Positions 441 to 40,280 of a stretch of 64,000 nt of DNA are shown here, piece by piece. Made by a program: the position numbers and the translations under genes. Each line of letters starts with the position of its first letter. Position 1 is the stretch's first letter. Under the pieces are notes generated by a model, which saw only the letters and a program-made list of their open reading frames with translations, searched no databases and had not been told where the DNA came from. Source of the DNA: Mesodorylaimus sp. YZB2_4 (lineage: Eukaryota; Nematoda; Enoplea; Dorylaimida; Dorylaimidae); contig JASANH010000525.1 in the NCBI GenBank assembly GCA_030248295.1, forward strand, positions 1-64,000. Reading direction: 5' to 3'.

Positions 441-1716
441 TCGCGGTGGGTAGAGGCCGTGCCACTACCCAACAAGGAAACACGGACAGTCGCGATAGCG
501 TTTGTGCGAGAGATTCTGTGCAGATATGGTAGCTGCAAGGAATTAGTATCTGACAGAGGTAAAGAGTTTTTATCAAACCTGATGCAGGAAGTTTGTCAGC
601 TCTGCGATATCAAGAAAAAGAATACGACAGCTTATCACCCAATGTGCCATGGACTGACCGAACGCTTTAACAAAGTTTTAGGAACGCTGCTAGGCATTCA
701 CACGCAGCAGTTTGGCACGGACTGGGACACCGCATTGCCGTTCCTATTGTTTGCGTATCGGTCTTCAGTTCAATCATCAGTGAAATATTCGCCCTACAAA
801 ATCTTATTCGGTCGGGAACCACGTATCCCTGGAGAGCTGTCGGTGCAAATGACGGAGAGAAAGAAAACGAAAGATTATGCGGACGATATTGCCGCAGGTT
901 TGGAAGCTATGAAATCGATCATACGCCGCAATTTGCAAGAAGCGCAGGAGAGACAGAAGCGGCATTATGATAGGGATAAGGAATGCATGGATTTCCCAAT
1001 CAATAATTTAGTATGGCTGCAAGCGGTACCTAAGGGCCAGGGTCAGAAGCTACAGGCTAAATGGGAAGGGCCATATATTATCTTGGCGAAACCAAGCAGT
1101 GGACAGTGTGATACGATTGTGGAATCAACCCACGGCTCCGCGGAAATTAGTGCACAACAATCGATTGAAGCCATGTCACGCCCCTTGGCAATTACCGCCA
1201 GGAAATGATGAGGAGGACGAAGAAATTTTCTTGGATTTAGGCAACACGACGTCGACGCTGGGACCCCCATCAGTCCCACAGGGAATAAAGCAACAGGTGC
1301 CACAGGAACCGCAAGTGCCGGAACAGTCGGCAGAGCAGACATCGCCCAAACCAGTGATGCAACCACGATTGATGCAGCGGCAAGAGGAAGTAGGTCGAGG
1401 TGTGTCACCAGAGTTTCAGACGCCACCAACGTCGCCGATCAAGAGTGGAGAGCCAGTGGCAGCAAAGTCACCGTCGCCATTATCTGTTCGTCCCACGTCA
1501 CCAGTGCAGGACAGTAGCAAACGATTAGCACTTGAACGGTCCTGCAGGAAGAAGTCACAGACTGTGGAGGCAGCTCGGAGCGCGGACAGAAACGAGGTGG
1601 CCAATCCCGCATCGGCAGAACCTGCCGCATTCCAGCCCACTCAACCCCGTCGCCCTGGCCTACGATCAAATCCGCTTCAAACTCGGCGGTACCAAGCTCA
1701 GGACTGGAGGAAATAA
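441..1716 (+). pseudogene. Ty3/gypsy-type retrotransposon remnant: integrase core and C-terminal tail
   Basis: The frame open from 441 to 1208 carries the later part of a retroviral-type integrase. It includes the second catalytic Asp in LVSDRGKEF, the Glu in GLTERFNK, and the downstream TDWDTALPFLLFAYR block typical of Ty3/gypsy pol. The zinc-binding part and the first catalytic Asp are missing because the copy starts abruptly near 441. A frameshift near 1095-1105 moves the tail into another frame, which continues to 1716 as an acidic, Pro-rich segment. This is a decayed 3' half of an element and cannot make a full integrase. Confidence 0.85.
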
Positions 1717-1879
1717 CAGACGGTCGAGGACGACTCGTCTCAATGCCCCGGCGTGTGCAATGTCGGTTCCTTGCGCTACGTCAGTGGATATTTTGGTGTG
1801 GGGGCAAGGTCCAATCAGGATAGGATATGACGGAACCACGCTCGTAATTCGAGTCAGTAGAGGGCACTTTGCATAATGC

Positions 1880-2357
1880 GGTAGGACCTGATTTAGGTGT
1901 GCACAAACATGTTGTTCGTGAGGCAAGGGGATCCAACCCCCCTATGGTTAGTATGTAAGTGTGATTTGCATATCGCCCAACTTGCTGGGCGACCTAGGAA
2001 TTTCTAGGGTGTGTAAGATCAGGTCGTTTGTGTTAGGTTAGGAAACTGGTTGCACCCTATACCCATGTGTATTAGAAATGTATATAAGGAACCCATTCTG
2101 CCATGCTCAGTCAGTAGTAGAGTTGCAGTCACTCGCTGGTACGTCGTAGTCATTCGTGATCTTCGTATTTCTTGCTTGTACGTCGGCTCGTATTAAACGA
2201 TTTCACTTAATTGTCCGTGGTTTTCTTTTGGGCAATGTTCCGTGTGCCGAGTGGACGGCGATTCCGCCCATATCCAGCCCGATCTTTGGGTAAGCAGTCT
2301 TGTTGAGTGTAACCGTTTACTGTGTCCATATTAGGCTAGGCCAGTAAACTACGTTAC
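1880..2357 (+). repeat. LTR-like sequence at the 3' end of the first Ty3/gypsy remnant (left boundary approximate)
   Basis: The stretch after the pol tail has LTR features: a TATA-like TATATAAGG at 2081-2089, an ATTAAA-type poly(A) signal near 2195, and an abrupt end in GTTACA at 2357, directly followed by the RNase H coding sequence of another element. The last 50 bp can fold back, because AGTGTAAC and GTTTACTG near 2308 are answered by CAGTAAAC and GTTACACT near 2340-2359. No second copy of this LTR lies in the window, so the left limit is a guess. Confidence 0.5.
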
Positions 2358-4880
2358 ACTTGCCCACCCTGACTTTACTAAACCATGGATCCTACAGACC
2401 GATGCGTCATTTGAAGGCCTTGGAGCCGTTCTATCACAAGAATATGACGGGAAGGACCGACCAGTGGCTTATTATAGTCGGGCTCTGAGCAAGCACGAAA
2501 AGAATTACAGCGCATGGGAACTTGAGGCACTAGCTGTAGTGGCCTCAGTTACTCATTTTCGGACCTTTATCTATGGGCAAAAGGTTACCGTCGTTACTGA
2601 CAACCAAAGCCTGAAGGGCATATTTGAGAAGACGAACCCTAATCCACGCATTGCCCGATGGGGTATCATTATGCAACAGCACGATCTAACTTTTGAGTAC
2701 CGCCCAGGGGCGCGCAATAATGCGGACCCTCTTTCACGCAAACCATTCGCATCCGGAATACCAACGTCGGCTGATAAAACCATGCGTGACATCGAAGATA
2801 TGCTCACGGAGCACACAATCATTCAAAAGGTCATCACAGAGAAGAACCAACAGCTGGAAAACTGCTTTTTACTCATTTCAAAGCTGAACGAGGCCTTGGG
2901 ATACTTGTCCGCGTCGGGAACACCAGAAAATGAAAATGTAGAGAAAAAATTATCGCTCGATCAACCGGACCAGACTTGGCTCACGGATACATCAGAAAAT
3001 ACGTGGTATAATGCGTACATAAACACCATTGTGGATGAAGCTGTTACCCCAGTTCAGCGGTCGCTGGACTCGGAAATGATCCGCTGCCTGCAGCAGAAAG
3101 ATCCGTATTTGGGCCCCATCATGGACTTTTGTCTACACGGCGCTCTACCTAACGACGCTAATGCTCGTAGACAAGTTTGCACAGACGTGTTAAATTACGA
3201 CTTGTCGCATGGAATACTGTACTGGCATCCTCGTAACGGCGTGACTGGACCTCGCATGGCTGTACCCACCAGCTTGGTAAAAGATATCCTGCACATGCAT
3301 CACGACAGCCGATTCGCTGCCCACCCGGGCATCGATCGCACCCTGGCCCGTATCCGAATGTACTATCATTGGCCCAGCTTGGCCAAAGACGTGGAACACC
3401 ATGTTCGCAGTTGCCTGCCATGTGCGCAAAACAAACCACCACCAGCATACCTGCATGCGCCATTACAAACAATCCCACCACCCGCCAAACCGTGGGACCT
3501 GGTAGCAGTTGATATCAAAGGGCCGCTCCCACTTACGGCTGACGGCAATCGATATGTTATCAGTTTTATCGATTACACAACGAAGTATACACAACCAGAA
3601 GTCTCAGCCGCAACTGTGGCTCGAGTTTTTGTGGACCATATTGTCCACCGCCATGGGCCGCCAGTGCGATTGCTATCAGATCGAGGAGCTAACTTGACTG
3701 CACCTTTATTGCAACGTATTTGCGAATTATGCAACACCAAGAAAATTTTTACGACTCCTTATCATGCCCAGACCGACGGGCTGGTAGAACGTTGGCACCG
3801 TAGCTTATCAACGGCTTTACGTTTCTACCCACCAGACAGCACAAAGTCCTGGGATGAATTCTTACCATACGCAGTTCATGCGCACAACACTACGGAGCAA
3901 ACCAGTACAAAGTTCTCGCCTTTCGAGCTGACTTACTGTAATAGCCTAGGCGGGCAGGCTATGCGAGGGACTAATCGAATAACACACGCACGGGTATATA
4001 GCTTTACTGTCACACAACCGCACGGGGCACGTACACATATCAGACTGACTGGCGAAACCTCGCTCAGCCCAAAGGCACAGGAAACAGACACAGCACGGCG
4101 GGCTAGGCTCGCGAACAAAGGAGCGGGCGGGAAGTGAGTCAGCCAACACACACAGCTAGGCCGTCTTGGGACGCTAGTTCAAAAACACATAGGGGGGCAG
4201 ACCTGGATCGAACGAACAGGAAGACTAGCCATCCATGATGACTGCAGGTCATAACTCGAATAGCCACACCCTTACATTACGGTCGCACACCACGATCTCC
4301 ATCGGATATTGCCTTCGACTATCAGGACAACCCTTACTTGGTGGACCAGGAGGATTACTGTCGAAACGTTCACAAGCATCTTACGGCCATGCACGCCTTG
4401 GCCCAGGAGAATGTAGAAAAGGCACAGGAACGGCAGAAGCTACAATACGACAAACGCGTAATCGTCCATGCATACACGCCAGGCGACAGCGTGTTGGTAA
4501 GGAACCCGTTGCATGAAAAGGGAATAAACAAAGTGAACCAAGTACCTTGGCTGGGACCAAAAGTGGTCGAGGACGTGAATGGTGTGGACCTGTTGGTCAG
4601 GTCCCCAAAGGAATCGCAAACGGAAGCGCGATGGGTGCACATCAATCGTACGAAGCCCGCACCGTCGACGACGGACAAGCAAGGGCAGTCAACGCAGGCG
4701 GCCAGGCCGTCCAATAAAGAGAGCGAAAAAGCGCCCACCCTGCAGCCAGGTTACAATTTGCGGTCACGCAAGGTTCAGTTCGCGGATCAGGACAAGGGAC
4801 AGGCGGCTACTGTCACGGGGACGAGACAACCGCCGGCGGGAGAATGTAATGGTCGTAAGAGGAAGCGAAAGATAAGATAA
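2358..4880 (+). pseudogene. second Ty3/gypsy-type pol remnant: RT end, RNase H, integrase, C-terminal tail
   Basis: The frame 2358-4137 begins inside pol with the RT/RNase H junction (LQTDASFEGLGAVLSQE, then YYSRALSKHEKNYS and the RNase H Asp in VTDNQSLKGI). It continues into an integrase with a His-His-Cys-Cys zinc site (HHDSRFAAHPG and CLPCAQNK) and a D-D-E core (VAVDIKGP, LLSDRGANL, GLVERWHR). Gag, protease and most of RT are absent. After about 3940 the frame leaves normal pol sequence. A more distal integrase piece and a basic tail resume in other frames between about 4240 and 4880, so the 3' part is disrupted by insertion or deletion. Confidence 0.88.
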
Positions 4881-13340: not shown

Positions 13341-13618
13341 ATACAGAGCTGTATATACAGCTGGCCTGATAATAAGGAAACCCATTAGCGAAAAAATTTC
13401 CGATTAATTTATTTGAAAGACTGGATAAAGTCTCAATGAATTAGATGCTACATGCGCTGTGGCATCCAATTATTACAGCGCAAAGAAGACTCGAAAAGAA
13501 TCAGACTGTGAGCGAGATCGGCATGATTCGTAATATTTTTTTCATGATACACTACATATCACATTGCTGTCGAGTTCTCTCAGCGTACGATTCCAGGCCT
13601 GTGTAGGCTCCCTGCGAT

Positions 13619-14620
13619 ATGTCGAACAATACTACTCTAGCAAGTTGCATGCAGTCACCGTCCTACTTGAAGCTGTTGTCTTATTCAAGGTTTGTCAGCT
13701 ATTCCATCACGTACCCTGTCTTCGCCATTCTATGTCCCCCAGCTCACATTCTTCTCCTCGTTGCATTCTACAAGCAATGGAAATCTGAGTCCGCCTACAT
13801 GTATCAAGTATTCAAAGCTATTTGCGAGACGTGCGAGACATTCGCGCACATTCTTTTCATTGCAACAATCAAATGGTGGTCGGGTGGAGCAGAAACTGTG
13901 GGTGTGGTATGGTTTAGGAAAAACTACTTATTCATGTTCTTTTCAGCGCACATTGTCTCGCCACTTTTTAACACTTTTTTTTGCTGTTCAATGCTCACGT
14001 CCTTGTGCATGACCATAGATCGAATTTTCGCCCTGGCTAAACCTTTCATTTATAAAAACATAAATAAAAGACGGCATCAATCAATTGCTTTCACCGTCAG
14101 CATGCTGCTCTGCCTTTCAATTAGCTGTTTTGATTCCTTTCGATTCACTGTTTCTGCTGACGGTGATTTATACCTTCTCTCATTGAACATGGCATACCTG
14201 AGAAGCAACCTGGCGAAAACCTTGTCGCACGTGCGCAGTTTCGCGTATGTATTTGGTGTTGTACTGTTGACAACTAGCAATCTCGCCCTTATCCGACTTT
14301 TCCAATCGAGATGCAAGAAAGTGAACCAAGCGATAAACACTGGCCCGAATGATATTCAGAAGAAAAAACAAGAAAAAACTTTAATTTTTTTATCATTAGT
14401 GCAATCTTGTACTGTTACTGCAAAATTTACAGGGGTTGCAGTGTATTTTTGGTTGCTGTATGGTATGCCCAATTTTTCTGTTTGTGGAGGCGGAGTGTAC
14501 AACGCGATTTTGACTGCCAGTGAGGAAGTTTTAGATGTTGTAGAAATATACCTAATTTTTATATTGAGCGATAGATGTCGTTTGATGGTCACGAAAGCTT
14601 TGCCTGTTTGTATTAGATAA
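13619..14620 (+). CDS. serpentine (7TM) receptor, nematode chemoreceptor type
   Basis: A single open frame of 333 residues starts at an ATG. It shows seven hydrophobic segments, beginning at about residues 25-55 (VSYSITYPVFAILCPPAHIL). A DRY-like motif follows helix 3 in MTIDRIFALAKPF, a basic intracellular loop precedes helix 6 (IQKKKQEKT), and a polar end follows helix 7 (FILSDRCRLM). The length and DRI motif fit rhodopsin-like nematode serpentine receptors close to the srsx/srx type. It would sit in the plasma membrane and probably senses a chemical or peptide ligand. The ligand is unknown and the subfamily is a guess. The gene appears intronless and stands alone. Confidence 0.8.
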   Translation: MSNNTTLASCMQSPSYLKLLSYSRFVSYSITYPVFAILCPPAHILLLVAFYKQWKSESAYMYQVFKAICETCETFAHILFIATIKWWSGGAETVGVVWFRKNYLFMFFSAHIVSPLFNTFFCCSMLTSLCMTIDRIFALAKPFIYKNINKRRHQSIAFTVSMLLCLSISCFDSFRFTVSADGDLYLLSLNMAYLRSNLAKTLSHVRSFAYVFGVVLLTTSNLALIRLFQSRCKKVNQAINTGPNDIQKKKQEKTLIFLSLVQSCTVTAKFTGVAVYFWLLYGMPNFSVCGGGVYNAILTASEEVLDVVEIYLIFILSDRCRLMVTKALPVCIR

Positions 14621-16710: not shown

Positions 16711-16891
16711 GGGGATTTTCATGCAATATGATGAAGATGACAAAAAGGCTCCGCCATTTGAAAAGCATCGAGAATCGAGCGAGAACTAATCTTCTGGTCG
16801 CACCAGAATGGAGAATCGTTCTTAGGTGGGATGCTTAGTTTTCAAATGGCGGAGCCTTTTTGTCATCTTCATCATATTGCATGAAAATCCC
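16711..16891. repeat. inverted repeat with arms of about 60 bp, upstream of the transposase gene
   Basis: The segment 16711-16769 is almost exactly the reverse complement of 16830-16891, with about 60 bp between them. The arms include GGGATTTTCATGCAATATGA and its complement. The right arm overlaps the 5' end of the transposase open frame, before its first ATG. The RNA or single strand could form a long hairpin, which may come from a local inverted duplication or act in expression of the element. Confidence 0.85.
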
Positions 16892-16903
16892 ACACAGATA
16901 GGT

Positions 16904-18406
16904 ATGTCTGCACCTGAGGGGAAGGTCTGGAAATCCAGAACCATAAAAGATGTTTTCGCGCATGATGTCCTTGTCCTTCGCAAGATCCTAAATTGTGAAG
17001 AATTCTTAAAGGTATCGTTCATTGTGGAGCGACCAGTTTCAGTTTTTGATGATTTTGATGATCATGCAAAATTCCAAATTGCCTATTGCAAAACATATCT
17101 GTACGACGCCATCGATAAGGCTTACGTTGAGCGCGAGGCAAAATTGTACCAAGAGATCAGATTGGAGCAAACTGCTGATCCAAATGCATCGTTGAGGCTG
17201 GCGATGGATGGTCGCTTTAGTCGCCCTGGCTTCTCAGCAACCTATGGCTTAGTCACTGCTCTCGACCTGGACCGAATGCGCATCGTTGCCTGCCATTGGA
17301 GGAAGAAAAACGACAATGATGTGTCGTCTAGTAGCGACATGGAAACTGTAGGAACGAGGACAGTGCTCAACTCGCTCGTCCACCCCTGCGATCCAAGGAG
17401 CTTCGACATGAATGCGATGGTAGCTTTGTTTGAAGGGGACGATGAGCAAGCTGCCACTGCATTGGCTCATCTACCAGCTGACAACGATTCCAACTTACCA
17501 GCTCCAATTCGCGTAGCTGCAATCGTAACAGACGGCAACTGCGCCGTTACAAAGATGATGAGCCAAGCCTTTCCCTCGATTCGCCATGATGGAGACCCAT
17601 GGCACGTGCTGAAAGCGGTAAAGAAGAGGCTGAACGATTTGGCGTGTCGGGCGGCAACTCGTGAAGTCGGTTATTGGAGCAAGTCAATAACCAATTTTTT
17701 GTGGACGGCCATGAAGACATGCGAAGGCGATGGGGACTTGTTGCTCGAACGATGGCGTAGCATCGCTTATCATATCTTTGACGTCCATGAATGGGAAACG
17801 GATACAGCGTTCATCAAGATTCATTGCTGCGAACACCTCACCGAGTACGCTGTCAATCGAGCTCCATTCTTGCTTCGGGGCTCTCCGGCCTATCAAGCTA
17901 TTCTAGCATTGGTCAACGACAAGGACCTTCAGCGACGCATTCTACGTTGTCGTCATTTTCTTGTCACATCGCCACTCGAAAACTATCATGCGGTCTTGTT
18001 GAAATATGTTCCGAAGAGGCTCCACTTTAGCGATTGGGCATTCTCAGTTCGTACGAAACTGGCTGTTATGGACTGGGAAGAGAACTACAATCGAGCTCCT
18101 CCTCTCACTTTGGATGGAACTAGCTTGTTCTACCTTGCTGTGCCACGTTCAGCAAATGAATGGCGCTTGAAAAAAACGACCCCACCGCACTCATATCGAT
18201 GGTCTCAAAGCTTAATCGATCTCGCTTTCTCGCTTGCCATTAGCGAATCATTGGGTGGAAAAAGGTTGTCGCAGACGCGCTCAATCGTTCCTGAAAAACC
18301 ATTGGTATCCGCTTTTGAGCGTCCAAACCGTCTGACAATGCTAGAACGCGACTATCGCCGTCGTCGCGGAGGAATTGATGATGAGGTTGTGGAGACTGAG
18401 TTCTAG
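16904..18406 (+). CDS. DDE-type transposase (MULE-like animal family)
   Basis: The protein is 500 residues if it starts at the first ATG (16904). The frame is open upstream to 16826 but only with a GTG, inside a hairpin arm, so an upstream exon is possible. Likely catalytic residues are Asp102 (RLAMDGRFSRPGF), Asp210 (AAIVTDGNCAV) with His234 shortly after (GDPWHVLKAV), and Glu359 (SPLENYHAVLLKYVPKR). This spacing and the final motif match a transposase family common in invertebrates and fish, usually annotated only as uncharacterised. No zinc-finger or THAP domain is seen at the N-terminus. The frame is intact, so the element may be young. Confidence 0.8.
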   Translation: MSAPEGKVWKSRTIKDVFAHDVLVLRKILNCEEFLKVSFIVERPVSVFDDFDDHAKFQIAYCKTYLYDAIDKAYVEREAKLYQEIRLEQTADPNASLRLAMDGRFSRPGFSATYGLVTALDLDRMRIVACHWRKKNDNDVSSSSDMETVGTRTVLNSLVHPCDPRSFDMNAMVALFEGDDEQAATALAHLPADNDSNLPAPIRVAAIVTDGNCAVTKMMSQAFPSIRHDGDPWHVLKAVKKRLNDLACRAATREVGYWSKSITNFLWTAMKTCEGDGDLLLERWRSIAYHIFDVHEWETDTAFIKIHCCEHLTEYAVNRAPFLLRGSPAYQAILALVNDKDLQRRILRCRHFLVTSPLENYHAVLLKYVPKRLHFSDWAFSVRTKLAVMDWEENYNRAPPLTLDGTSLFYLAVPRSANEWRLKKTTPPHSYRWSQSLIDLAFSLAISESLGGKRLSQTRSIVPEKPLVSAFERPNRLTMLERDYRRRRGGIDDEVVETEF

Positions 18407-24144: not shown

Positions 24145-27100
24145 CTACGGCCACATGAGCGGAGAAATGATCGAATCTAAAAATGCTTCTTCTTTGAACC
24201 TAGATCTTACAGTCAGGGCGCGTCGTTCTACCTCTGAATTCTGGAAAGCATGGAATACAAAAATGGCCACTCCCAACGAAACATTGAGGGCGAAAACGAC
24301 TGCGTACGTCTCGAACTGTTGCAAATAGACTGCGCTACAGCCTAATGCCCAACTTGCAATGCTCAGCGGCAGTATGAAGAACATGCCGATTCTTGAAGAC
24401 CTGCAAGAAGACCATACGAGTGCCCAATAAAAAGGGGTCAAAGAGTCATATCCGCACTTTGAGGTCTTGTACGACATCGCCATCTCGGGCTCCTCAAAGG
24501 GCCCGTGAACACCTGGTCCGAACATGCCAGTGATGATAGTTAGGATGAAAGCGGGCAAAGCTGTAATCACCACAGGGATGATGGTGAAGTACATAAGAAC
24601 ATGGCCCAGGTTTAGCCAGCATCTGAAACAAGAATGACCAAGATGTCACTTTGCTAAAAGAGAGGTATCATCAAGTGCATGAAAGCCAAACGAAAGAGAA
24701 CTCGAAGGATTACAGTGCCAGCGTTGGCTGTGATACTGCTTCTTCAAATGGAAGCTTTTTTCTCAAGTACAGCCCATGGAAGGCATATTAAAAGGGGACT
24801 TATGAGTAGACAGGAGAGACAATTTGCTTTCAGTGATATACAGTACATTTGATTGCTTGGCACATTGCTCAGGCATTTGGCTACCCCTTATGAACAATGT
24901 GGAGCAGTATGAACATTTCATAGTTCGCCAGAAATTTCAAAATGGTTGGCGCAATAATCTTCACTGCCCCGCTTACAACAAACACAAATAAGTTTGTTTC
25001 TCTGTGCGCATTCGACCTGCCCATTTTCGCACAGAGCATTAAGAGGAAAGCTAACACGCCATGGAGTGCTTTAGCGACTCCGGCGGGAGAGTCGAAAGTT
25101 CAAATGACCAAAAAACTGTGAATAGATTATTAAAATTTTCTGCGCAGTCCCTAATCACGGGATGCTAAGATTCACAGACTTACGAGAAATCCGAATTGTA
25201 TTCCCAAAAATAAAACATGCCTGACGCAGCTGTGACCATAAATGGTAATACTGGAAGAGAGATGCTACAATACTGAGTCAGTTCAATCCTGGATAGTGTC
25301 TTACCCCAACCAGTCAATTGTGCAGCTCCGACTGATTCTTGAACTTGCAGTTTGATATATCCACCGACGATGGTAAATGTGCGAACCGCTTCCAGCAAAA
25401 GGAACCCAAAATATACCAGTGTGAAATACTGGATGATGATAGCAGTGCCGCTGCACAGTTCCTGAAACACAACGGAATATAAGGGATAGGCTGTTAAGAT
25501 GGGCCTGCGAAAAAACATACGTAATGGCGGGTGGAATCGTGAAAGAGGAAAATAAAAAGATGGCCGAAGAACAGACTCATTTCTTCGCTGGCTGGAATTT
25601 GGCGATCGAAGGAGCGGCAACTAAAAATAGAATCCTATTGAGGTTGGATATTTTGCTTGACAGTCAATAATAATACTACGTAATCAAAAACTTTATCTCT
25701 GAGCGGGAGTCGGCCCCAGGGGCATGGGACCATGCCAACCCTGCTCCCCATGCCTATTCACCCTAGATTCCCTCGTCATACTCACTCTGTCAAACTCCCG
25801 AGCAGGAGGCACGCGCCCACACATCCCAGCAACCAGACACACCCTAGAGAATGGAGTACTTGAACAGTCTTACGCTGCGTCGGAGTCAGGGGATCAGGCT
25901 GAAAAGATGTGCGAGTTTGTCAGTAAAAATATAGTTATGCCGAGAAAGCACTTGCTCACCAAATACCCAAGCGGTGGCCTTGTAGTCGGGGTAGTTGGAC
26001 TGGACGTGGTAACCGTAGTTGAGGTCGTGGTCGAGGTCTTCGTGCTTGGAGTACGGCTAGATACTGACGCTAGCTTTGCACTGCTACTTGGAGTAAGGGA
26101 AGGAGGTGTGGAGACGGGGGCTGGTGTTACAGACTTCGAGGAAGGTGGAGATGTGGTCTCAGTCGGGGGTGGTGTAAGTTTGGGTGTAGGAGAAGTTGGA
26201 ACTGTAGTTCCAGGTTGTGAAGTAGATGCCGAAATAGTGGTGGTGGTGGTGCTGCTGCTGCTGGAACTGGAGCTGGTGCTGCTAGTGGATGTGCTTGGAC
26301 TGGAACTGCTGCTAGATAGAGTGCTAGAGGTCGTGCTGCTGCGGCTACTCCGGGGGCTTGTGGACTCAGTGGAACTGAAGATGCTGCTAATTGGGGTACT
26401 GAGCCTGGAGCTGCTGCTAATTAAGGTACTACGCCAGCTAGTGTTAGGAGTCGACCTGCTGCTCATGGAAGTGCTGAGCTTGTTGGCAGCGGTAGTACCA
26501 GGAGTAGGCCTGTTGGTAGTGGACGTACTGGTACTGGGCCTTTTGGTAGTGGACGTACTAGGCCTTTTGGTAGTTGAGGTACTGGAGCTGGGCCGCGTTG
26601 AAGTGGTACTGGAACTCGGTTTATCTGAAGACTTGGTGCTTGGACTTGGACCTTCGGTACTTGCGCTCGTGGAGCTGCTCCTCAGAGCGGTGGTTGACGT
26701 ACGCGTGGATTGCGGGACTGACGAAGAAGATACGCTCGTAAGAGCAGTTATAGGCACAAATGTAAACAAAAAACTGCTGGTTGGAGATGGAGTCACTGGC
26801 AAGGTTGTCGTTACGCTTGTTGACGGCGCTGCAGTAGATGAGGACGAGTATGACGTGGTTTGCAGATCTTCAGCTGTGCTGGTTAAGTGTGGCGTTGATA
26901 CAGGCCTAAAATTAAGCAGAGACCAAATCACCTGATTTTATTTCTGTGTATGTGCATTATGTTTTAGAGCACGCATCTACTCCAGTGATTGATTTAGAGT
27001 TCTGAATAGTTCGGCCCAGAAAATAAGAACACATTGAATTTACAGAGCTTAAATGATTTTTCGATGCAAAAAAAGGAAAATCTTATTAAAAGACTTTAAT

Positions 27101-28951
27101 TTCTGGGGTTTGTTATTAAAGTTTTTCGTCGCACTCAAGTTGCAAAAATACAATTGATGTCCGTCGTAACGTGAGTCCTGCCCCGTGCCCAACTTTGTTT
27201 CGCTCATTCACATGGCATGGCTGCGTTAGCATGGTCACCCAAGCCAGAGAAAAACATCTCCTGCTCACTTCGCTGAGTCCATTATTTACAGTTAACGCTA
27301 CCATTGGAGGACAGGGATGTCACAGGCATAGCGGCATGGCTCTCATTTATTTTTACTTACGATGTGGGCTTTTCTGTGGATGGTGTCACCGTAGTCGTAC
27401 TGCTGCTGACTGTGGTGGTGCTGGTGGTTCTTGAGCTGGCTTTTGACGTTGATGTAGACGATGGGGTAGATGTGGACGATGAGGGGCTTGGCTTGCTTGA
27501 GGAAGTCGTTGACGAACTGAGGCTGGTTGATGTACTTGCAGTCAGTGCAGTCGCAGTGGTGGTGGTTAGTGTTTCGGGCGCAGTGGTTGTCGGCGGCTCA
27601 CGAGCAGTCGTGCTAACAGTTGGCAATGAGGTCGAAGGGGGTTTTGCGGGAGACGTGGGGATTTTTGTTGAGGTTGTTGAGGACGTCGACACTGGCACAG
27701 AAGTCGTTGGTTGTGGTGGTGTAATTGGAACAACAGTGCTTGGTATCAATTTGGAAGTTTGTAGGGTTGCAGAAGTGCTGCTGGATGGTAGACTCGTTGA
27801 TTTGGTAGAGGTAGATTCTGTGCTGCTACTAGTAGCTGCGGTAGATGTTGTCAGAGTGCTGCTGATTGGCATGGTTGTTGTGGCGGTAGTAGATGTTGGC
27901 TTCGAAGTTGCGCCCACTGCTGTACTCAACGTTGTGCTTGGGGCTGTGCTTGTTGCGATAGTGGTCACGGGTGGTGTACTCGTGGACGCAGATTCTGTGA
28001 CGGTGGACACTGTAGTAGTGGCACTGGTACTGGTACTGGCACTGGTAGTTGTAGTCGTAGTAGTAGAGGTGGTTGTTGTAGTCGTGGTAGTCGTAGTGGT
28101 TGTAGCATCACAGCGAGGAAATGTTGGTGGCTCTTTAATAGCATTCCACGAACTTTGCTCTGACCAGGTTGGCCCTTGTGCGCCGCATCCTGCAAGAATG
28201 CGCAGCAATATAGAAATGGCACAACCATGAGAAGAATTCTCTAACTGCATTTTCTATCATTCGCGACAAAATCTTAACTTACCAAACTCGCATAGCATTG
28301 CTGTATTCAGATTTGCGTCAGTATAAGCATTAAACTGGAACGAGTTCTGCGGATTTATGATAATCACCAGCGGAGGCTGACTTCGAGTTGCATTGACTTT
28401 GACGCTGCCGTTTCCTGTGGACGACATTGATATCGGACCAAGAAGAGATTTTCTTTGATCAGCCCACTGGAAGTCATGTAAGTCATGCCCGGAAGATGTG
28501 GGGTTGTAGGCTCCAAGCATTATGCTCGTGCTTCGTGCAAAACTCTGGAGCCAGGACATAACGCAATCATAGTCAGTCGGGGTCGCAAATGTAGCCAGTC
28601 TGCTGTAATCGAAATAACCTTGGAAAAAATTTCTGTTCGCGTTTGAACACCAGGTGACACCGCTATCGAATGTTTGAACTAGGTTCAATGTGGTCGAATA
28701 CAGGTAGCATGTATTCCGTTTTATATTAGGGAATGCGAATTGTATCGAATTACAATATTGAGTGATGTTGTGTGCTGGGTCCCCATTACCTAAAAGAAAA
28801 TTCTTTTCGTCGCTGAAAAAACTAATCTATGCCAGAAAATCTTACAGCCGGCGGCTGTCGCCGGAGCTCCTCTGCCTCCTTGACCGTAGCAAATCGGACT
28901 GATCACCAATCCAATCGCAAATAGAGAAACCAAGGTGCTAAATTTTAACAT
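24145..28951 (-). CDS. C-type-lectin-like / mucin-stalk / adhesion-type 7TM receptor
   Basis: Eight exons (28951-28846, 28789-28283, 28189-27361, 26905-25960, 25898-25786, 25620-25521, 25461-25184, 24622-24145) join in frame with GT-AG ends to give 1118 residues. Residues 1-23 are a signal peptide (MLKFSTLVSLFAIG). Residues about 60-204 resemble a C-type lectin fold (CYLYSTTL, TWCSNANRN, LATFATPTDYDCV, FQWADQ, TAMLCEFG) without the EPN/WND calcium motif. Residues about 205-796 are Ser/Thr-rich. Residues 797-1118 hold seven helices of the adhesion/secretin type: ELCSGTAIIIQYF at helix 3, SCWLN in extracellular loop 2, ASWALG in helix 6 and VSLGVAIFVFHAFQN in helix 7. No GAIN domain or GPS cleavage motif lies between stalk and helix 1. 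It is probably a cell-surface receptor; ligand and signalling are unknown. Confidence 0.82.
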
Positions 28952-33349: not shown

Positions 33350-34038
33350 TCATTTTACCTCGTATCCTCTCTCCAAGGGACGTGAAAAGCAGCTAGGAGG
33401 AACCTCTTCCAGTCTGCACCTGCCTCTATCCAATGTGCGTCAGCAGCTTCAGTTTCATACTCGGAGGGTAACAAGTCAGAACAAGAAGTTTCGTGTGATC
33501 GTTACTAATTAACATAAGTAATCACATGTTTTCTTGATGTTGACGTTCATAGGTAATAACAGGTCATAGGGTTCGAACGAACTACTGCGCACACTTAACT
33601 CGACCCGTCGTACCCTCTTTCCTATATGGGACTGAGAACGCTTACACTCACGGTGACGCAAAGAGGTAGTGAACAAGCAGTTGGAAGCTCCTTGCTCGGA
33701 AAGAGTGGGACGGTTTAGCTTGTTCGTGCGCTAATTGTGAGACTACCCACGTTGCCTGAAATAACGAGATCAAGATCGTGTCAGATGAGGAACTGATTTC
33801 ACTACTATCTGGGAAATGAAGGTCCCATACCGCACCCTTGAGCAATAAACCGAGGGCCGATATTCAGAGCGCGTCATTGAATCGCCATTATCCCAGCGGG
33901 CTGTAACCACTTGAGGCGTGAGCTTTCTAGCTGTTGCTGGACCTGCCCATTTCATTATCAGGTTAACTGGCTGATCGGGTAGTCACTGCTTTCATTCTGT
34001 TACTATGGCATTCCATATAAAACGAAGACCTCGACGTC

Positions 34039-35004
34039 ATGAATGAAACGACTGATATCGTAGTGTCAAAGCACCTATTGAAGGTGACATTGGTCCCCAA
34101 CATACTGGGCATCCCTGCCGCCTTTTGGTCACTCATATTCAATCTCCTCACTGTCGTCATTATCGCTTACTCAAAGCACTTACGTACCAAGTGCTTTGTA
34201 CTTCTTGGAGCCAATGCCTTTGCCAATGTTCTTATCGGGGCCGGCTACTTAGTCAACGATTCAGTGCGTATACATCGCTTCATCGAGGGTCGTGGCGAAG
34301 TGGGGAGCACATGGGGGTGTTTCAAGGATATGTCCCTTATTGTATTCGCCCAGCCATTCTCGATTGGAATGAACACGGCCTTAGTTATTGAACGACTTCT
34401 GGCCACGTTTTGTTCAGTGAAATACAAGCTGTGGTCATTCTGCCAAGTGACCATTCCTTTGATTCTTCTCGCATCCATCTTCGCCCTGGCTCAGGTTGCA
34501 CTGCATTTGTACGATTCCTGGGAGCATGGCAACCAAGTTCTGCTGAGCTGTGGTGTGGATGACACTGTGCGCTCGACCAGTTTGGCCATCCTGAGCGGAG
34601 TGCAGATTATCACATCGGCTATTGTTATCGTACTACACGGTGTCTTGGCTTACGGAGTTTGGCTGCATAAAAAGAAGTTCCAAGCCATGACAGGCAACCA
34701 GACAAGCGAAGCTATTCGGAGGGAAATGGCCAAATTGGAGGCGGATATGAAGTTTGTCAAAGCTATCAGTGCAATTGTCATCACTCATATTTGCATAATT
34801 TGCGCCCGCTTCGTAGTGCTGCTCATGAACATGTGGGCCAATGATGCTAGTCGAGTATTGGCCAATCGGTTCGGCGGCTTGGTAGTTGTGATCACATCAG
34901 CTGTTGACTTCTTTTTGCTCATCTTCATAAGCAGTCGATTTCGCTACGCTACCAAGAAGCTATTTCACTTGGACACGGCCAGTGTGGAGCCGATTGGCGG
35001 CTAA
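34039..35004 (+). CDS. serpentine (7TM) receptor, paralog of the gene at 36164-37255
   Basis: The 321-residue single-exon frame starts with an N-glycosylatable head (MNETTD). It then has seven helices, beginning at LVPNILGIPAAFWSLIFN. An ERL motif replaces DRY after helix 3 (TALVIERLLATFCSVKY). A long intracellular loop 3 precedes helix 6 (RREMAKLEADMKFVKAIS), and the C-terminus is short and basic. It resembles nematode chemoreceptor families. An ATATAAAA at about 34015 lies just upstream and could be a TATA box. It is tail-to-tail with its paralog about 1.16 kb away, which indicates an inverted duplication. Ligand and coupling are unknown. Confidence 0.8.
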   Translation: MNETTDIVVSKHLLKVTLVPNILGIPAAFWSLIFNLLTVVIIAYSKHLRTKCFVLLGANAFANVLIGAGYLVNDSVRIHRFIEGRGEVGSTWGCFKDMSLIVFAQPFSIGMNTALVIERLLATFCSVKYKLWSFCQVTIPLILLASIFALAQVALHLYDSWEHGNQVLLSCGVDDTVRSTSLAILSGVQIITSAIVIVLHGVLAYGVWLHKKKFQAMTGNQTSEAIRREMAKLEADMKFVKAISAIVITHICIICARFVVLLMNMWANDASRVLANRFGGLVVVITSAVDFFLLIFISSRFRYATKKLFHLDTASVEPIGG

Positions 35005-36163: not shown

Positions 36164-37255
36164 TTAACTCCCAAACGGCACTACGCTGGGTGATTTCACG
36201 CGGAATAGCTTCTTGGCAGCAAAACGAAATCGGCTGCTCATAAACATTAGAAGAAAAAAATCAATAGTAGATGTCATCACAACAACCAACCCACTGCATC
36301 GATTGGCCACTACTCGGCTATCATCACTCGCCCACAGTTTCATGAGCAGCACTACAAACCGGGCGCAAATAATCAAAACATGCGTGATGACAATTGCACT
36401 AATAGCTTTGACAAACTTCATATCCGCTTCTAATTTGGCCATTTCCCTCCGAATAGTTTCGTTTGTCTGATTGGCTGTCGTTACCTGGAATTTCTTTTTA
36501 TGCCGCCAAACGCCGTAGACCAAGACAGCATGCAGCAGTATAACAATCGACATTGTGGCGATTTGCACTCCCGTTAGAACAGCGAGACTGGTCGGGCGCA
36601 CAGTGTCATCCATACCACAGCCCAGTAAAACTTGGTTCCCATGCTCCCACGAATCATACAAATGCAACGCCACCTGACCATGAGCAAAAATGAGTGCCAG
36701 GAGAATCAAAGGAATGGTCACTCGGCAGAATGACCACTGCTTGTATTTAATTGAACAAAACGTGGCCAGAAGTCGTTCAATAACTAAGGCTGTGTTCATC
36801 CCAATGGAAAATGGCTGGGCGAAGACTATCACGGCCATAGCTTTGAAGCACCCCCACGTGTCTCCCACTTCGCCATGACCTTCGATGTAGCGATACACCC
36901 GTAGTGAATCGATGACCAAGTAGCCCGCTCCAATGAGGAGGTTGGCAAAGGCATTGGCTCCGAGGAGAATAAAGCACTTTGTGTGAAGCTGCTTGGAATA
37001 GGCGATAATAGAGATGGTGAGGAGATTGAATATGCATGACACGCTGCCGGCTGAGATGCCCAATATGTTGGGAACCAATATTATTTCCAAAAGGTGTATG
37101 GACACATCAATGTCAGTCTGTACAAACGTGGCGTTTGTTTCATTCATGATAACGTGAGTCACTGTGGTCTGGACCATCAGAGGAACAGAAACGAGTAATG
37201 TCACCACGAGGACTCGACAATTTCTTCTGGTTTTGTAATAATCAAATGCCACCAT
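36164..37255 (-). CDS. serpentine (7TM) receptor, paralog of the gene at 34039-35004
   Basis: The 363-residue frame starts at ATG 37255. It is highly similar to the plus-strand receptor over its whole helical core, sharing for example VPNILGIS, TKCFILLGANAFANLLIGAG, ALVIERLLATFCS and YDSWEHGNQVLL. It has an extra N-terminus of about 45 residues that looks like a signal peptide (CRVLVVTLLVSVPLMVQTT) followed by an Asn-glycosylation site. A TATATA lies about 50 bp upstream on the minus strand. Differences cluster in the N-terminus and in loop 3 near the NQT motif, as expected after duplication. It is a probable chemoreceptor; no ligand can be inferred. Confidence 0.8.
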   Translation of the reverse strand: MVAFDYYKTRRNCRVLVVTLLVSVPLMVQTTVTHVIMNETNATFVQTDIDVSIHLLEIILVPNILGISAGSVSCIFNLLTISIIAYSKQLHTKCFILLGANAFANLLIGAGYLVIDSLRVYRYIEGHGEVGDTWGCFKAMAVIVFAQPFSIGMNTALVIERLLATFCSIKYKQWSFCRVTIPLILLALIFAHGQVALHLYDSWEHGNQVLLGCGMDDTVRPTSLAVLTGVQIATMSIVILLHAVLVYGVWRHKKKFQVTTANQTNETIRREMAKLEADMKFVKAISAIVITHVLIICARFVVLLMKLWASDDSRVVANRCSGLVVVMTSTIDFFLLMFMSSRFRFAAKKLFRVKSPSVVPFGS

Positions 37256-37259
37256 AGGG

Positions 37260-39017
37260 CAATCAGGAAATTAGATAAAGCGTGCTGATTTTGTACTTCA
37301 GATATATAAAATTTTTTGGAAATTAGTTTTCAGAGGCTCGTTTGAAACAACACTACCCTGTTTCTTTAAAACTGAAATCACGTCAATGTACAGTCATAAA
37401 GTCAGAAGAGCGAAGTTTTTCGCAAGATATTGTTTAAAAACAGCCAAAACAGGGAAGTAGATTAAATGCTGACCATACACGGTCTGATTACAAAATATAA
37501 ATCTTGGCAGACTCATGTCAGTTTGCGTCAAGGGTAGAATTTTCATGCAGGATTCTGATTAATTTGAAACCAGACCCCACTTTTTTGACCCTCTCGCCGC
37601 CCAGCGCTTTGAATTCTTCTCGATGGAGACAACTAGAAACGAGTTCTCTTTCGTTTTGACCTGTCCTAGTCTGCCAAGTGTGTATATGAGCGGTATAATT
37701 CATGTAATTAGGATGGGAAAGACGCACGAGGGACCGAGCCATCTTTGATAAGAGTGCGACCTGGCCGGTGTTATTATTTCAGAGGAAGAACGTTGAGGAG
37801 CCTACTGACTGCTGCTGCGCAAAGCTCGTCACGACCCGCGTTTGAAGCAAAAAGAATAGCGCCAGGACTGCTTTCCAGGCGAAGTGGATATAAACTTCTG
37901 AAACATCGCATTGGTGCTTGATGTTTCCCAGACAAGGGAGATATCGGTCTTCCCTCAGTATGTCTACGAAGCTGGTGAAACGCTACCTTCGTGCAGGACG
38001 GCGCCTTCCTGACAGTGATTGAGCGTTGGTAAACGAGGCTATAGGGAGCTTGCGCGTTCCACTCGCAACTTGGTCGCGAGCAGCGGTCATTGTCTCTAGT
38101 GTTCAAAGACCTGAGAAACATTAACCTGCCTTTTCGGCCCTCAATGACGGCCTTAAGAGACCCGATCACCGAGAGAAACACCAATGGCTGTGTAGCGTGT
38201 TGCAATAGGGCCAGATCAAATTTTACAGTGGTAAAAGTTTCCTCGAAATACACCTTTCTACTGTGCGAGTTCATCAGGCCCAAGAACCCTTGACAAAAGC
38301 GATCTCGCTTCGTAAATATTTAAGGGCCGTCTACTGAATGGTAGAACATTACCAGTATCAGCATCAAGCTTGCCTGCTGACCATTTAAATGAGCACGGCA
38401 CGACCAAGTCCGTCTGGAACCTACAGTAGGAAGATGCTCCCCAAGACCACTCGTTCGCAGTGAGATGACCAGTATGGCCTTGCCTTCTGTCGTCTTGTAA
38501 AAGTTTTTCCGCACACTTTCAACGTTTCTTTGGTTGTGTACGGTGAAAATTCGTGCTTCAACCCTTAGCTATGCATATATTTGTTTGTGGCAGAAGCCAA
38601 TGCTATTATCAAATCGAAAATAGCGTAGGTTACCATGCTTCAAACAGCAAATTCAAACTTTAAACTGGGCTGTGGATGGTTTGGCTTTCTTGTGTTCCAT
38701 TAGTGGATGACTTCTGTTTACACTTCGCATTTTCCTAATGAGAATTCATTGCGAACCAAGCGTCATTGTTAAAGTCACCGTCAGCCTAATGCGATTAAAG
38801 TGACTTTGACCAGCGCCTACGTTTTCTGCTTTTATTGTTCTGCTACTGCCCCCACCGGTGTTGCAAACTGTGCGTGTTACTTATTTGCCTAAACGGTATA
38901 CTGATTTGGTTTTTGTCATTCTAAAATTTGGTTTGGTGTTGATACTCGATTATCGACATCAAAGCCCACGCTAAATTTGGCGCTATTAAACACTGTACAG
39001 AACATATCCAGATTCGA
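37260..39017. other. intergenic between a receptor gene and the glutamate-receptor-like gene
   Basis: Minus-strand frames at 37518-37742 and 37774-38283 were examined. They have no recognisable domain and look like chance frames. No RNA gene or clear repeat was seen. Confidence 0.4.
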
Positions 39018-40280
39018 ATGTCGCTGAAAATAGGCGTCGTGCCAATCGGCACCCTTGCCGTGTGTTCTTGCGAGAAACGTTGCTTTTCTAACATTTTTGC
39101 CGTCGCTATCGCTAAATCTCTTTGCGAATCATTGCAGCTACGTTGCCTTTTTGTGTGCTACAATGATGGATTTGGTGGCGTCCATGAGAATGGAACTACA
39201 ACAGGTCTGATCGGAGCTATCAGTCGCGGGGAATTCGATGTATCCTTGCCTCATCTTGTCCCTTCATATGATAGAATGAAAGCAGTCACATTCAGTCAAG
39301 GATTTTTCGATGTCGAGACAGTTTTAGTGACAAGAATGCCACAAGGCAAGAAGAGCTTAGATTTGAGTATGTTTTACGCTTTTCAATGGCCTGTTATTTG
39401 CGCATTAATTTTTTCAGCTGCTTTTACTTTTCTTTTTATCACAATTGCCAAGTCGCAGTTACAATTATCTGCAAAGTGCCAAGATATAAAATATGGTTTG
39501 AAGAAGCCAATAATTAACAATATTCTATCCCCAAACTGGAAACAAAATGTCCTTGAATTTCACTCTCTACGACTCATGCTAGGCTTGTGGGCATTGCTCG
39601 GGGTCGTCCTGAGCGCAGCCTTTTCTTCGAAATTATTTTCCGAAAAAATGGCATCATCAATTGGTCGCCCATTCACTGATTTAGAAACGTTTGTTCAATG
39701 CTTAGAGGAAAAGAAATGCCGATTGGTAATGTCCTCAACAGATGCAATTTTCTTCGATCAGCTAACAGCATCGAACACACAATCGTCACGCCGTGCAAAA
39801 CTAGCCCTGAAGGACAATCCAGTGATGATACTAAAACAGAGTAGAATCCTGGAGTGTATTTCCCAAGAAAAGGATTTGTATTTGGTGTGGATGACGCGTA
39901 AAGATGAAATATTCAATGATATCAGCCGTGATAAACAGTGCGATTATTACGTGGTCTGCACCCATTTCCGGCAACAGGGGGCATTTGCCGCAAGAAGACG
40001 TCTTTTGTATTTAGAGCGCATGAATCGTTTTTCCTTGCATTTTCGAGAAACTGGTCTTGACCTAGCGCGGGCGCATGATTCAGTGCCGATGGCTAGATGT
40101 GGGAATCTAAAGTTATCTGGATCTCACAGCGAATATGAAATCATGACATCGATGTTTTACTTTTATATTGCCGGGATAGCAGCTGGTTGCAGCGCTTTGA
40201 TTATTGAGCTCGTCGTTTGGTATTTTATAAGATTTCGAACTTGCCTGGTCGTCTTTCCTCGAGCCCTCTACTATTTATGA
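39018..40280 (+). CDS. ionotropic-glutamate-receptor-like channel without an amino-terminal domain
   Basis: The 420-residue frame starts directly in the ligand-binding lobe S1 (LKIGVVPIGTLAVC). It runs through the usual GLIGAISRGEFDVSLPHLVPSYDR segment, here followed by MKAVTFSQGFFD. M1 is near residues 118-145 (FQWPVICALIFSAAFTF) and M3 near 185-210 (GLWALLGVVLSAAFSSKLFSEK). S2 then leads to a final helix near 380-405 (AAGCSALIIELVVWYF). The canonical SYTANLAAF motif of M3 is replaced by a divergent sequence, so gating or ion conduction may differ. There is no ATD and no signal peptide in this exon; an upstream exon may be missing. It resembles the divergent ionotropic receptors of nematodes and arthropods. 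Confidence 0.75.
   Translation: MSLKIGVVPIGTLAVCSCEKRCFSNIFAVAIAKSLCESLQLRCLFVCYNDGFGGVHENGTTTGLIGAISRGEFDVSLPHLVPSYDRMKAVTFSQGFFDVETVLVTRMPQGKKSLDLSMFYAFQWPVICALIFSAAFTFLFITIAKSQLQLSAKCQDIKYGLKKPIINNILSPNWKQNVLEFHSLRLMLGLWALLGVVLSAAFSSKLFSEKMASSIGRPFTDLETFVQCLEEKKCRLVMSSTDAIFFDQLTASNTQSSRRAKLALKDNPVMILKQSRILECISQEKDLYLVWMTRKDEIFNDISRDKQCDYYVVCTHFRQQGAFAARRRLLYLERMNRFSLHFRETGLDLARAHDSVPMARCGNLKLSGSHSEYEIMTSMFYFYIAGIAAGCSALIIELVVWYFIRFRTCLVVFPRALYYL

Follow-up and report, generated by a model that had tools for sequence, protein, structure and literature searches.

How could an adhesion-type receptor signal if it lacks the module that is usually held responsible for its activation? Adhesion G protein-coupled receptors (GPCRs) are commonly explained by a tethered agonist held in the GAIN domain. 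The question is raised by a gene on the minus strand (28951-24145) of a 64,000-nucleotide stretch (hereafter the window) at positions 1 to 64,000 of contig JASANH010000525.1, from the nematode Mesodorylaimus sp. YZB2_4 (assembly GCA_030248295.1). Its product combines a putative C-type-lectin-like domain (CTLD) as head, a long Ser/Thr-rich stalk and a seven-transmembrane (7TM) bundle, with no detectable GAIN or GPS. We read it as one member of an expanded nematode family of receptors of probable class B2 descent without a GAIN/GPS module. The anatomy and the family are described with high confidence; for the explanation as a whole, which includes the mode of signalling, we see an even chance.

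Gene model and exon structure

One continuous open chain runs along the minus strand from 28951 to 24145, with GT-AG ends and matching phases throughout. The splices were rechecked, and on this point the sequence-only reading of the locus held. Its eight exons and 1118 residues had to be corrected to ten exons and 1081 residues, because the exon patterns of paralogs expose two small introns, both in frame and open, that had been read through. The first is intron 7 (25251-25304, 54 nt), recognised by frame and paralog splicing. Read as coding, it restores the earlier eight-exon chain of exactly 1118 stop-free residues; the corresponding introns of the paralogs differ in length, and the one in L072 contains a stop. 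The second, intron 9 (24401-24457, 57 nt), lies in intracellular loop 3, was likewise taken as coding before, and is recognisable solely by paralog comparison; a loop-3 intron occurs in all six near paralogs. The splice sites of the final model, intron 9 included, were chosen by aligning paralog proteins back to the window DNA (five of five, L068 left out).

Of the six near paralogs, one lies on contig C366 and five on C76. Their 7TM parts were spliced by using the target as query, which biases the alignment towards it, although splice sites and exon lengths were read from the paralog DNA itself. The exons for helices 2, 3 and 4 measure 100, 157 and 67 nt, in the same phases, in six of six. 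The helix-1 exon has 113 nt in five of them, and in the sixth, L067, the alignment begins at the second codon, three bases after an AG.

Exon 1 (28846-28951) supplies the start codon and a signal-peptide-like N-terminus (residues 1-35) in an open frame that closes with a GTAAG donor. Residues 1-22 resemble a signal peptide, with a hydrophobic peak at residues 4-22 (by hydropathy, not by a dedicated signal-peptide program), in agreement with the signal peptide proposed earlier.

The seven-helix part and its class

The 7TM part is encoded by the last six exons. Exon 5 (25786-25898, 113 nt) contains the juxtamembrane motif PDPLTPTQR and helix 1, exon 6 (25521-25620, 100 nt) loop 1 and helix 2, exon 7 (25305-25461, 157 nt) helix 3 with its conserved Cys, and exon 8 (25184-25250, 67 nt) helix 4. 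Exon 9 (24458-24622) follows with SCWLN, helix 5 and intracellular loop 3, and exon 10 (24145-24400) with helices 6 and 7, a short cytoplasmic tail and the stop. The Pfam profile 7tm_2 (PF00002) matched the target in two scans (E 2.7e-9 and 2.4e-9) and seven of seven family members. Helices 2 and 4 fall below the hydropathy threshold used; the 7tm_2 profile nonetheless spans the region. A PDB search with a profile of the seven members returned ADGRL3 (4.5e-18) and ADGRD1 (6.5e-18), and the best secretin-type structure was VIPR1 (1.1e-5), which bears out the adhesion class assigned before. With Pfam at E up to 1 over the whole protein, 7tm_2 was the only match, and neither HRM (secretin type, B1) nor a Methuselah ectodomain appeared. 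Judged by its helices, the 7TM part is class B2; by the GAIN/GPS definition, the protein is not a canonical adhesion GPCR.

Could the protein be a surface mucin that acts as a decoy or purely in adhesion, with the 7TM part as a mere membrane anchor? In loop 1 and helix 2, the family has its own residues at several positions where class B has its usual ones (PASEEIS versus IHKNLCIS of ADGRL3 in the PDB alignment), as such an explanation would allow. However, the helix-3 Cys, E..R of helix 3, GW..P, SCW.N and the helix-7 pattern N.........H...N..V are invariant in all seven rows of the family alignment (A2), and conservation of the last four goes beyond what an anchor needs. We regard an anchor as improbable and continue with a receptor of class B2 descent.

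A tree of 28 sequences places the family apart from the classical receptors. Its 19 family 7TMs split at 100/100 from the GPS-bearing and secretin-type genes of this genome and from human ADGRL3, where the rows GPS_C130 and GPS_C249 are partial, SEC_C2 and GPS_C249 were flagged as long branches, and the choice of rows followed earlier labels. Seventeen of the 19 have related heads or are near kin of such genes; the other two are C78, with Lectin_C, and C22, for which no head was found. A label test on this tree counted two changes for the CTL label because the headless C22 row sits inside the group. C78 is separated from the other 18 family 7TMs at 92/91. Within 3.7 kb, its gene has a pair of Lectin_C pieces (E 2e-5 and 3e-9), followed by a stretch rich in Thr and then by the 7TM exons of 100, 157 and 67 nt, an order read without worked-out splices upstream of the 7TM. 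This position would be in keeping with a CTLD as the ancestral head and its later divergence to an unrecognisable form, with the root placed for drawing only.

Distant paralogs have helix 2 and 3 exons of mostly 109 and 160 nt, not 100 and 157. Exons of 157 and 67 nt for helices 3 and 4 were also seen in a GPS-bearing adhesion GPCR (L006/L036, C130:56818-61126, with CTCNHLTSF). Since the two exons are present in this gene and fused in the latrophilin-like genes, the intron positions look ancestral.

Stalk, juxtamembrane motif and the missing GAIN/GPS

Exon 3 (27361-28189) begins with the post-head linker (GCGAQGPTW...), whose start is resembled, by eye, in paralogs L072 and L067, and continues into the first Ser/Thr-rich part of the stalk; exon 4 (25960-26905) contributes the second. 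The stalk described earlier is thus present: residues 233-796 form 564 amino acids with 61.5% Ser/Thr, 72.9% Ser/Thr/Pro and zero Cys, and Ser/Thr makes up at least 43% of each 60-residue window. Together with the head, it gives an ectodomain of about 800 residues, a length in keeping with the long ectodomains of adhesion GPCRs.

Neither GAIN nor GPS was matched by Pfam in the 1081-residue protein, in line with the earlier observation that both are missing. The Cys-free stalk reaches to about 17 residues from helix 1, and its composition in all 60-residue windows leaves no room for a GAIN domain. The single HLT-type, GPS-like triplet sits at residue 487, within the Cys-free stalk and 327 residues before helix 1. 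A GAIN domain hidden in an intron was considered and rejected, given that intron 4 has only 61 nt and the stalk leaves no space.

Between stalk and helix 1 lies PDPLTPTQR (25872-25898), an instance of the motif DP(L/M)(T/S)...R, which was recognised from the seven-row alignment and from distant paralogs. DP(L/M) occurs in six of the seven rows and R9 in all seven. Several distant paralogs, for example L020, L028, L029 and L032, have PM(T/S)..ER segments that resemble it.

Across the genome, GPS was found at eight places. By eye, six of these (C58, C72, C130, C249, C2 and C16) have a same-strand 7tm_2 exon at a distance of 0.2-0.8 kb, which indicates that the GPS search works on classical genes. 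None lies near the 49 7TM places of the family described below; the only shared contig is C2, at a distance of about 307 kb. GAIN was found at two places, C58 (over cut-off) and C72 (below), both of them latrophilin-like genes. Both searches were made exon by exon, a procedure that a strongly diverged GPS in a paralog could escape.

The lectin-like head

Exon 2 (28283-28789) encodes the CTLD-like head (residues 36-204, with conserved C48, C63, C83 and C202), and the head as a whole covers residues 36-206. Taken by itself, the head lends no support to a lectin-like fold, as neither Pfam nor PDB gives it a significant match. The target head was unmatched in Pfam at E up to 10, and 17 of 17 heads showed no Lectin_C, only stray GLEYA (E 0.079) and CEP76_N (0.15) matches. 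Against PDB nothing was significant, one match being a multi-CTLD protein at E 0.14, and NCBIfam gave one stray match far below cut-off (E 0.021). An AlphaFold model from the single sequence, with no alignment, reached a pLDDT of 37.6 and was too poor to use. Similarly, alignment A1 of 17 heads (L062 left out because of a stop) was weak against 13 Lectin_C domains in hhalign (probability 8%, P 0.0042). For the head subfamily to which the target belongs (10 rows, including a truncated duplicate), the score against Lectin_C was only 15.7, which is inside the shuffle range (maximum 16.4) of two other sets, from which those shuffles were made.

It is by way of these other sets that the fold can be recognised. 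Thirteen heads of a related subfamily, compared with 13 Lectin_C domains of the genome, scored 35.0 over 108 of 116 profile columns, versus at most 16.4 for 100 column shuffles and 14.4 for the reversed control. All 23 head rows together scored 25.8 (shuffles at most 16.4, reversed 16.2). The head is thus indirectly identified as a probable divergent CTLD: the lectin-like fold proposed earlier did not stand on the head alone and is recovered through its relatives.

The suggestion that the receptor may sense glycans fared worse. None of the tested calcium/sugar motifs of the EPN/QPD/WND type, a list which we take to cover calcium-sugar binding, is present in the head. Calcium-dependent sugar binding is therefore unlikely, and glycan sensing is unsupported. 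In the three genes compared, head identity to the target was 23% (L067), 27% (L070) and 33% (L072), versus 52%, 51% and 47% for the 7TM. In these genes the heads diverge faster than the 7TMs, the pattern to be predicted if the input varies and the output stays the same.

An expanded family in this genome

The two halves of the gene recur throughout the genome. At least 77 distinct head places on 17 contigs and at least 49 7TM places on 25 contigs (rows reaching helices 6-7) were counted, and 73 of the 77 heads share a contig with such a 7TM. These counts are lower bounds, as the searches were made exon-wise, and E-values of up to 0.19 mark some head rows as weak (among them C62:27510 at E 0.07 and C83:274282 at E 0.018). 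For 31 of the 49 7TM places, the 12 kb upstream contain a related head on the same strand, 3.6-8.3 kb away and with no other 7TM in between. Where any upstream head exists (32 7TMs), it lies at a median distance of 6.2 kb, with a 10-90% range of 4.4-7.6 kb. A Pfam Lectin_C takes the place of the head upstream of five further 7TMs, C78 among them. That the same two halves recur together genome-wide makes their combination more than chance.

The pairing used 36 of 37 rows of the first head search (the target's second piece being left out), all 68 rows of the second, 49 of 73 7TM rows, and 21 of 140 Lectin_C rows, hand-picked on contigs with a 7TM. Apart from C278:16742 and C22:261990, the 24 omitted 7TM rows belong to genes already counted through another exon. 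A 7TM query that still included 19 residues of intron 9 found zero homologs in a collection of 5.8 billion proteins, and all relatives come from this genome. The same 19 residues were part of the 7TM queries for one Pfam scan and for the genome 7TM search.

Several observations weigh against a single head-stalk-7TM gene as the rule. The evidence for joining exons 4 and 5 consists of reading frame, splice signals and comparison with paralogs rather than of a transcript. For 12 of the 49 7TMs, no head or Lectin_C was found within 12 kb upstream; set apart from these is C76:208611, whose nearest upstream head lies beyond another 7TM. A head is found downstream as well, within 12 kb, for 18 of the 49. 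This is a consequence of the tandem arrangement of the genes, and orientation by itself therefore does not single out one head. By eye, paralog L069 (C76:182700-192300) has the same 7TM, a signal-like start and an S/T-rich ectodomain without a head, and L071 (C76:208300-215000) the same 7TM with a shrunken head; the head is thus not essential for every family member.

The exon 4-5 join leads to the question of whether two adjacent genes have been fused in the model, that is, a secreted or anchored lectin-mucin of exons 1-4 and a separate short 7TM receptor that starts near exon 5. In a variant of this explanation, exons 1-4 would possibly retain intron 4 and terminate in a hydrophobic end. The open frame indeed passes exon 4 into such an end with a stop, and the excess of head places (77) over 7TM places (49) may mean 7TM-less heads, although several heads per receptor would have the same effect. 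However, intron 4 is a 61-nt GT-AG intron with matching phases, the head-7TM order is repeated at narrow distance in 31 of 49 places, and exon 5 opens with the juxtamembrane motif, immediately after the acceptor, in the target as in five of the six near paralogs. Two separate genes are therefore very improbable, and we retain the single receptor gene. As an observation in its own right, the frame at 25894-26937 (minus strand) with intron 4 retained continues into VSKCFLGITIFLLTNSHIFSA and then a stop; the resulting isoform would end in a hydrophobic segment, possibly an anchor, in place of the 7TM.

Some heads are arranged differently. On C39 and C83 they occur in pairs or triplets separated by about 0.3-0.9 kb, as at C83:228566-231393 and C39:497909-499145, which points to receptors with several CTLDs or to siblings that are secreted on their own. 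At C21:899552-951984, on a contig without a counted receptor, 40 Lectin_C places form a dense array on one strand.

How the receptor may work

In the absence of a GAIN domain, there would be no autoproteolysis and no released tethered agonist, so that the usual tethered-agonist mechanism should not operate here. With no GAIN to cut and no buried agonist, we propose a route through the head. Displayed at the surface, the CTLD-like head would be held off the membrane by the long mucin-type stalk, which is covalently continuous with helix 1, and could bind a ligand on another surface or particle. Because of this continuity, binding or pull on the head can act directly on the bundle. The binding event or the pull would travel along the stalk, presumably O-glycosylated and stiff, to the DP(L/M)(T/S)...R segment above helix 1, whose conservation makes it the likely coupling piece, and the seven-helix bundle would leave its basal state and become active towards G proteins. 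The head would then serve as the variable recognition part and the 7TM as the conserved output. This route is a tentative proposal to which we give somewhat less than an even chance.

The main rival accepts the GAIN-less receptor and denies that the head gates it: the 7TM would either signal constitutively or respond at the bundle to a ligand of its own, soluble or a peptide, and head and stalk would do no more than adhere or shield. The headless L069 and the shrunken head of L071, both on the same 7TM, fit such a view, as does the GAIN-less human ADGRA1, which PMC8421042 classes as 'not tethered agonist'. On the other hand, the head-7TM pairing is kept in 31 of 49 family places, distant ones included, which argues that the two parts work together. 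We consider a receptor that is not gated by its head rather unlikely, and compare the proposed head-gated receptor with known systems below.

Comparison with known systems

The sequence-only reading had presented the gene as a single receptor of unusual architecture. The architecture stands, but the gene is one of dozens, and CTLD-bearing adhesion-type receptors have been described in placozoans, amphioxus and another nematode. According to PMC6321704, 28 of 36 CTLD receptors of the placozoan Trichoplax sp. H2 are GPCRs of the secretin/adhesion family. They share with our family the CTLD ectodomain on a class B2-type 7TM and the large number of genes; they belong to a distant phylum, and the likeness is judged by description. 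In amphioxus, adhesion GPCRs with Lectin_C are reported in a section of PMC2246102. Compared by description, these too place a C-type lectin domain on an adhesion-type receptor, but they form a diverse set in which Lectin_C is combined with other domains, many with GPS. A case from the same phylum is Bxy|Bu_11124 of Bursaphelenchus xylophilus, with two CTLDs, a GPS and a latrophilin-like 7TM (PMC9085898). It resembles the target by description as a nematode protein with CTLD and adhesion-type 7TM; unlike the target family it has a GPS, and one such protein is named there.

Receptors without GAIN are known as well. ADGRA1/GPR123 is given as the sole human adhesion receptor without this domain in PMC8421042. 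By description it shares the GAIN-less adhesion-class 7TM, but it is a single gene, and no extracellular domain is tabulated for it there.

Insect Methuselah receptors are a lineage-expanded class B 7TM group without GPS and with an ectodomain family of their own. The target family is alike in its expansion without GPS, whereas the Methuselah ectodomain was unmatched in the target by Pfam.

For C. elegans, PMC13197933 lists three adhesion GPCRs, namely the latrophilins and flamingo. These have the class B2 7TM in common with the target, and the latrophilin ADGRL3 is the best solved relative of the family. The latrophilin-like genes of this genome (C58 and C72) have a GPS, with none detected in the target family, and helices 2 to 5 lie largely in one exon, unlike in the target.

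Among the matches listed in searches of open PMC papers, we recognised no description of a GAIN-less CTLD-mucin-7TM family in nematodes. While CTLD-GPCRs themselves are already known, the combination is new here, and so is its scale, given that C. elegans, the model species of the phylum, has three adhesion GPCRs. Nematode receptor repertoires have mostly been drawn from that species, and this view is altered accordingly; the family also bears on the repeated pairing of CTLD and B2 7TM in placozoans, amphioxus and nematodes. We suggest, with slightly less than even confidence, that in a nematode lineage a GAIN-less adhesion-type 7TM was turned into a large, tandem-arrayed and mucin-stalked repertoire with variable heads (CTLD and CTLD-derived). 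It would be a nematode counterpart of the placozoan CTLD-GPCRs, signalling without cleavage or released tethered agonist and reading microbes, food or other cells directly. With dozens of GAIN-less B2-type receptors that carry a conserved juxtamembrane motif and a long Ser/Thr-rich stalk, the genome offers a natural test of mechanical or head gating without a tethered agonist.

Other features of the window and genome

Neither the Rfam nor the tRNA scan found anything in the window, and repeats of at least 25 bases were not found around the gene. Retrotransposon-like open frames cover 441-4877 (plus strand), and in one of them an integrase core was matched at 441-1205 (rve, E 1.6e-8); an open frame at 16826-18403 (plus) shows a weak Mutator-like transposase match below cut-off (E 1.8e-4). 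An open frame resembling ionotropic glutamate receptors lies at 38943-40277 (plus; Lig_chan-Glu_bd, E 2.4e-5, below cut-off). Among families searched in the genome, Srh was found at one place, below cut-off, and TTR-52, which we assume to be typical of nematodes, at 27 places. Along with the Srsx-type receptors listed next, TTR-52 points to a nematode and not to a tardigrade, which had also been considered; the scarcity of Srh suggests a worm outside Rhabditina. Further serpentine receptors are also present in the window: an open frame at 13607-14617 (plus) has a weak Srx-type match just over cut-off (E 2.3e-5), and two single-frame Srsx-type receptors in opposite orientation are located at 34021-35001 (plus) and 36167-37270 (minus), with Pfam Srsx E-values of 3.5e-14 and 1.8e-12, respectively.

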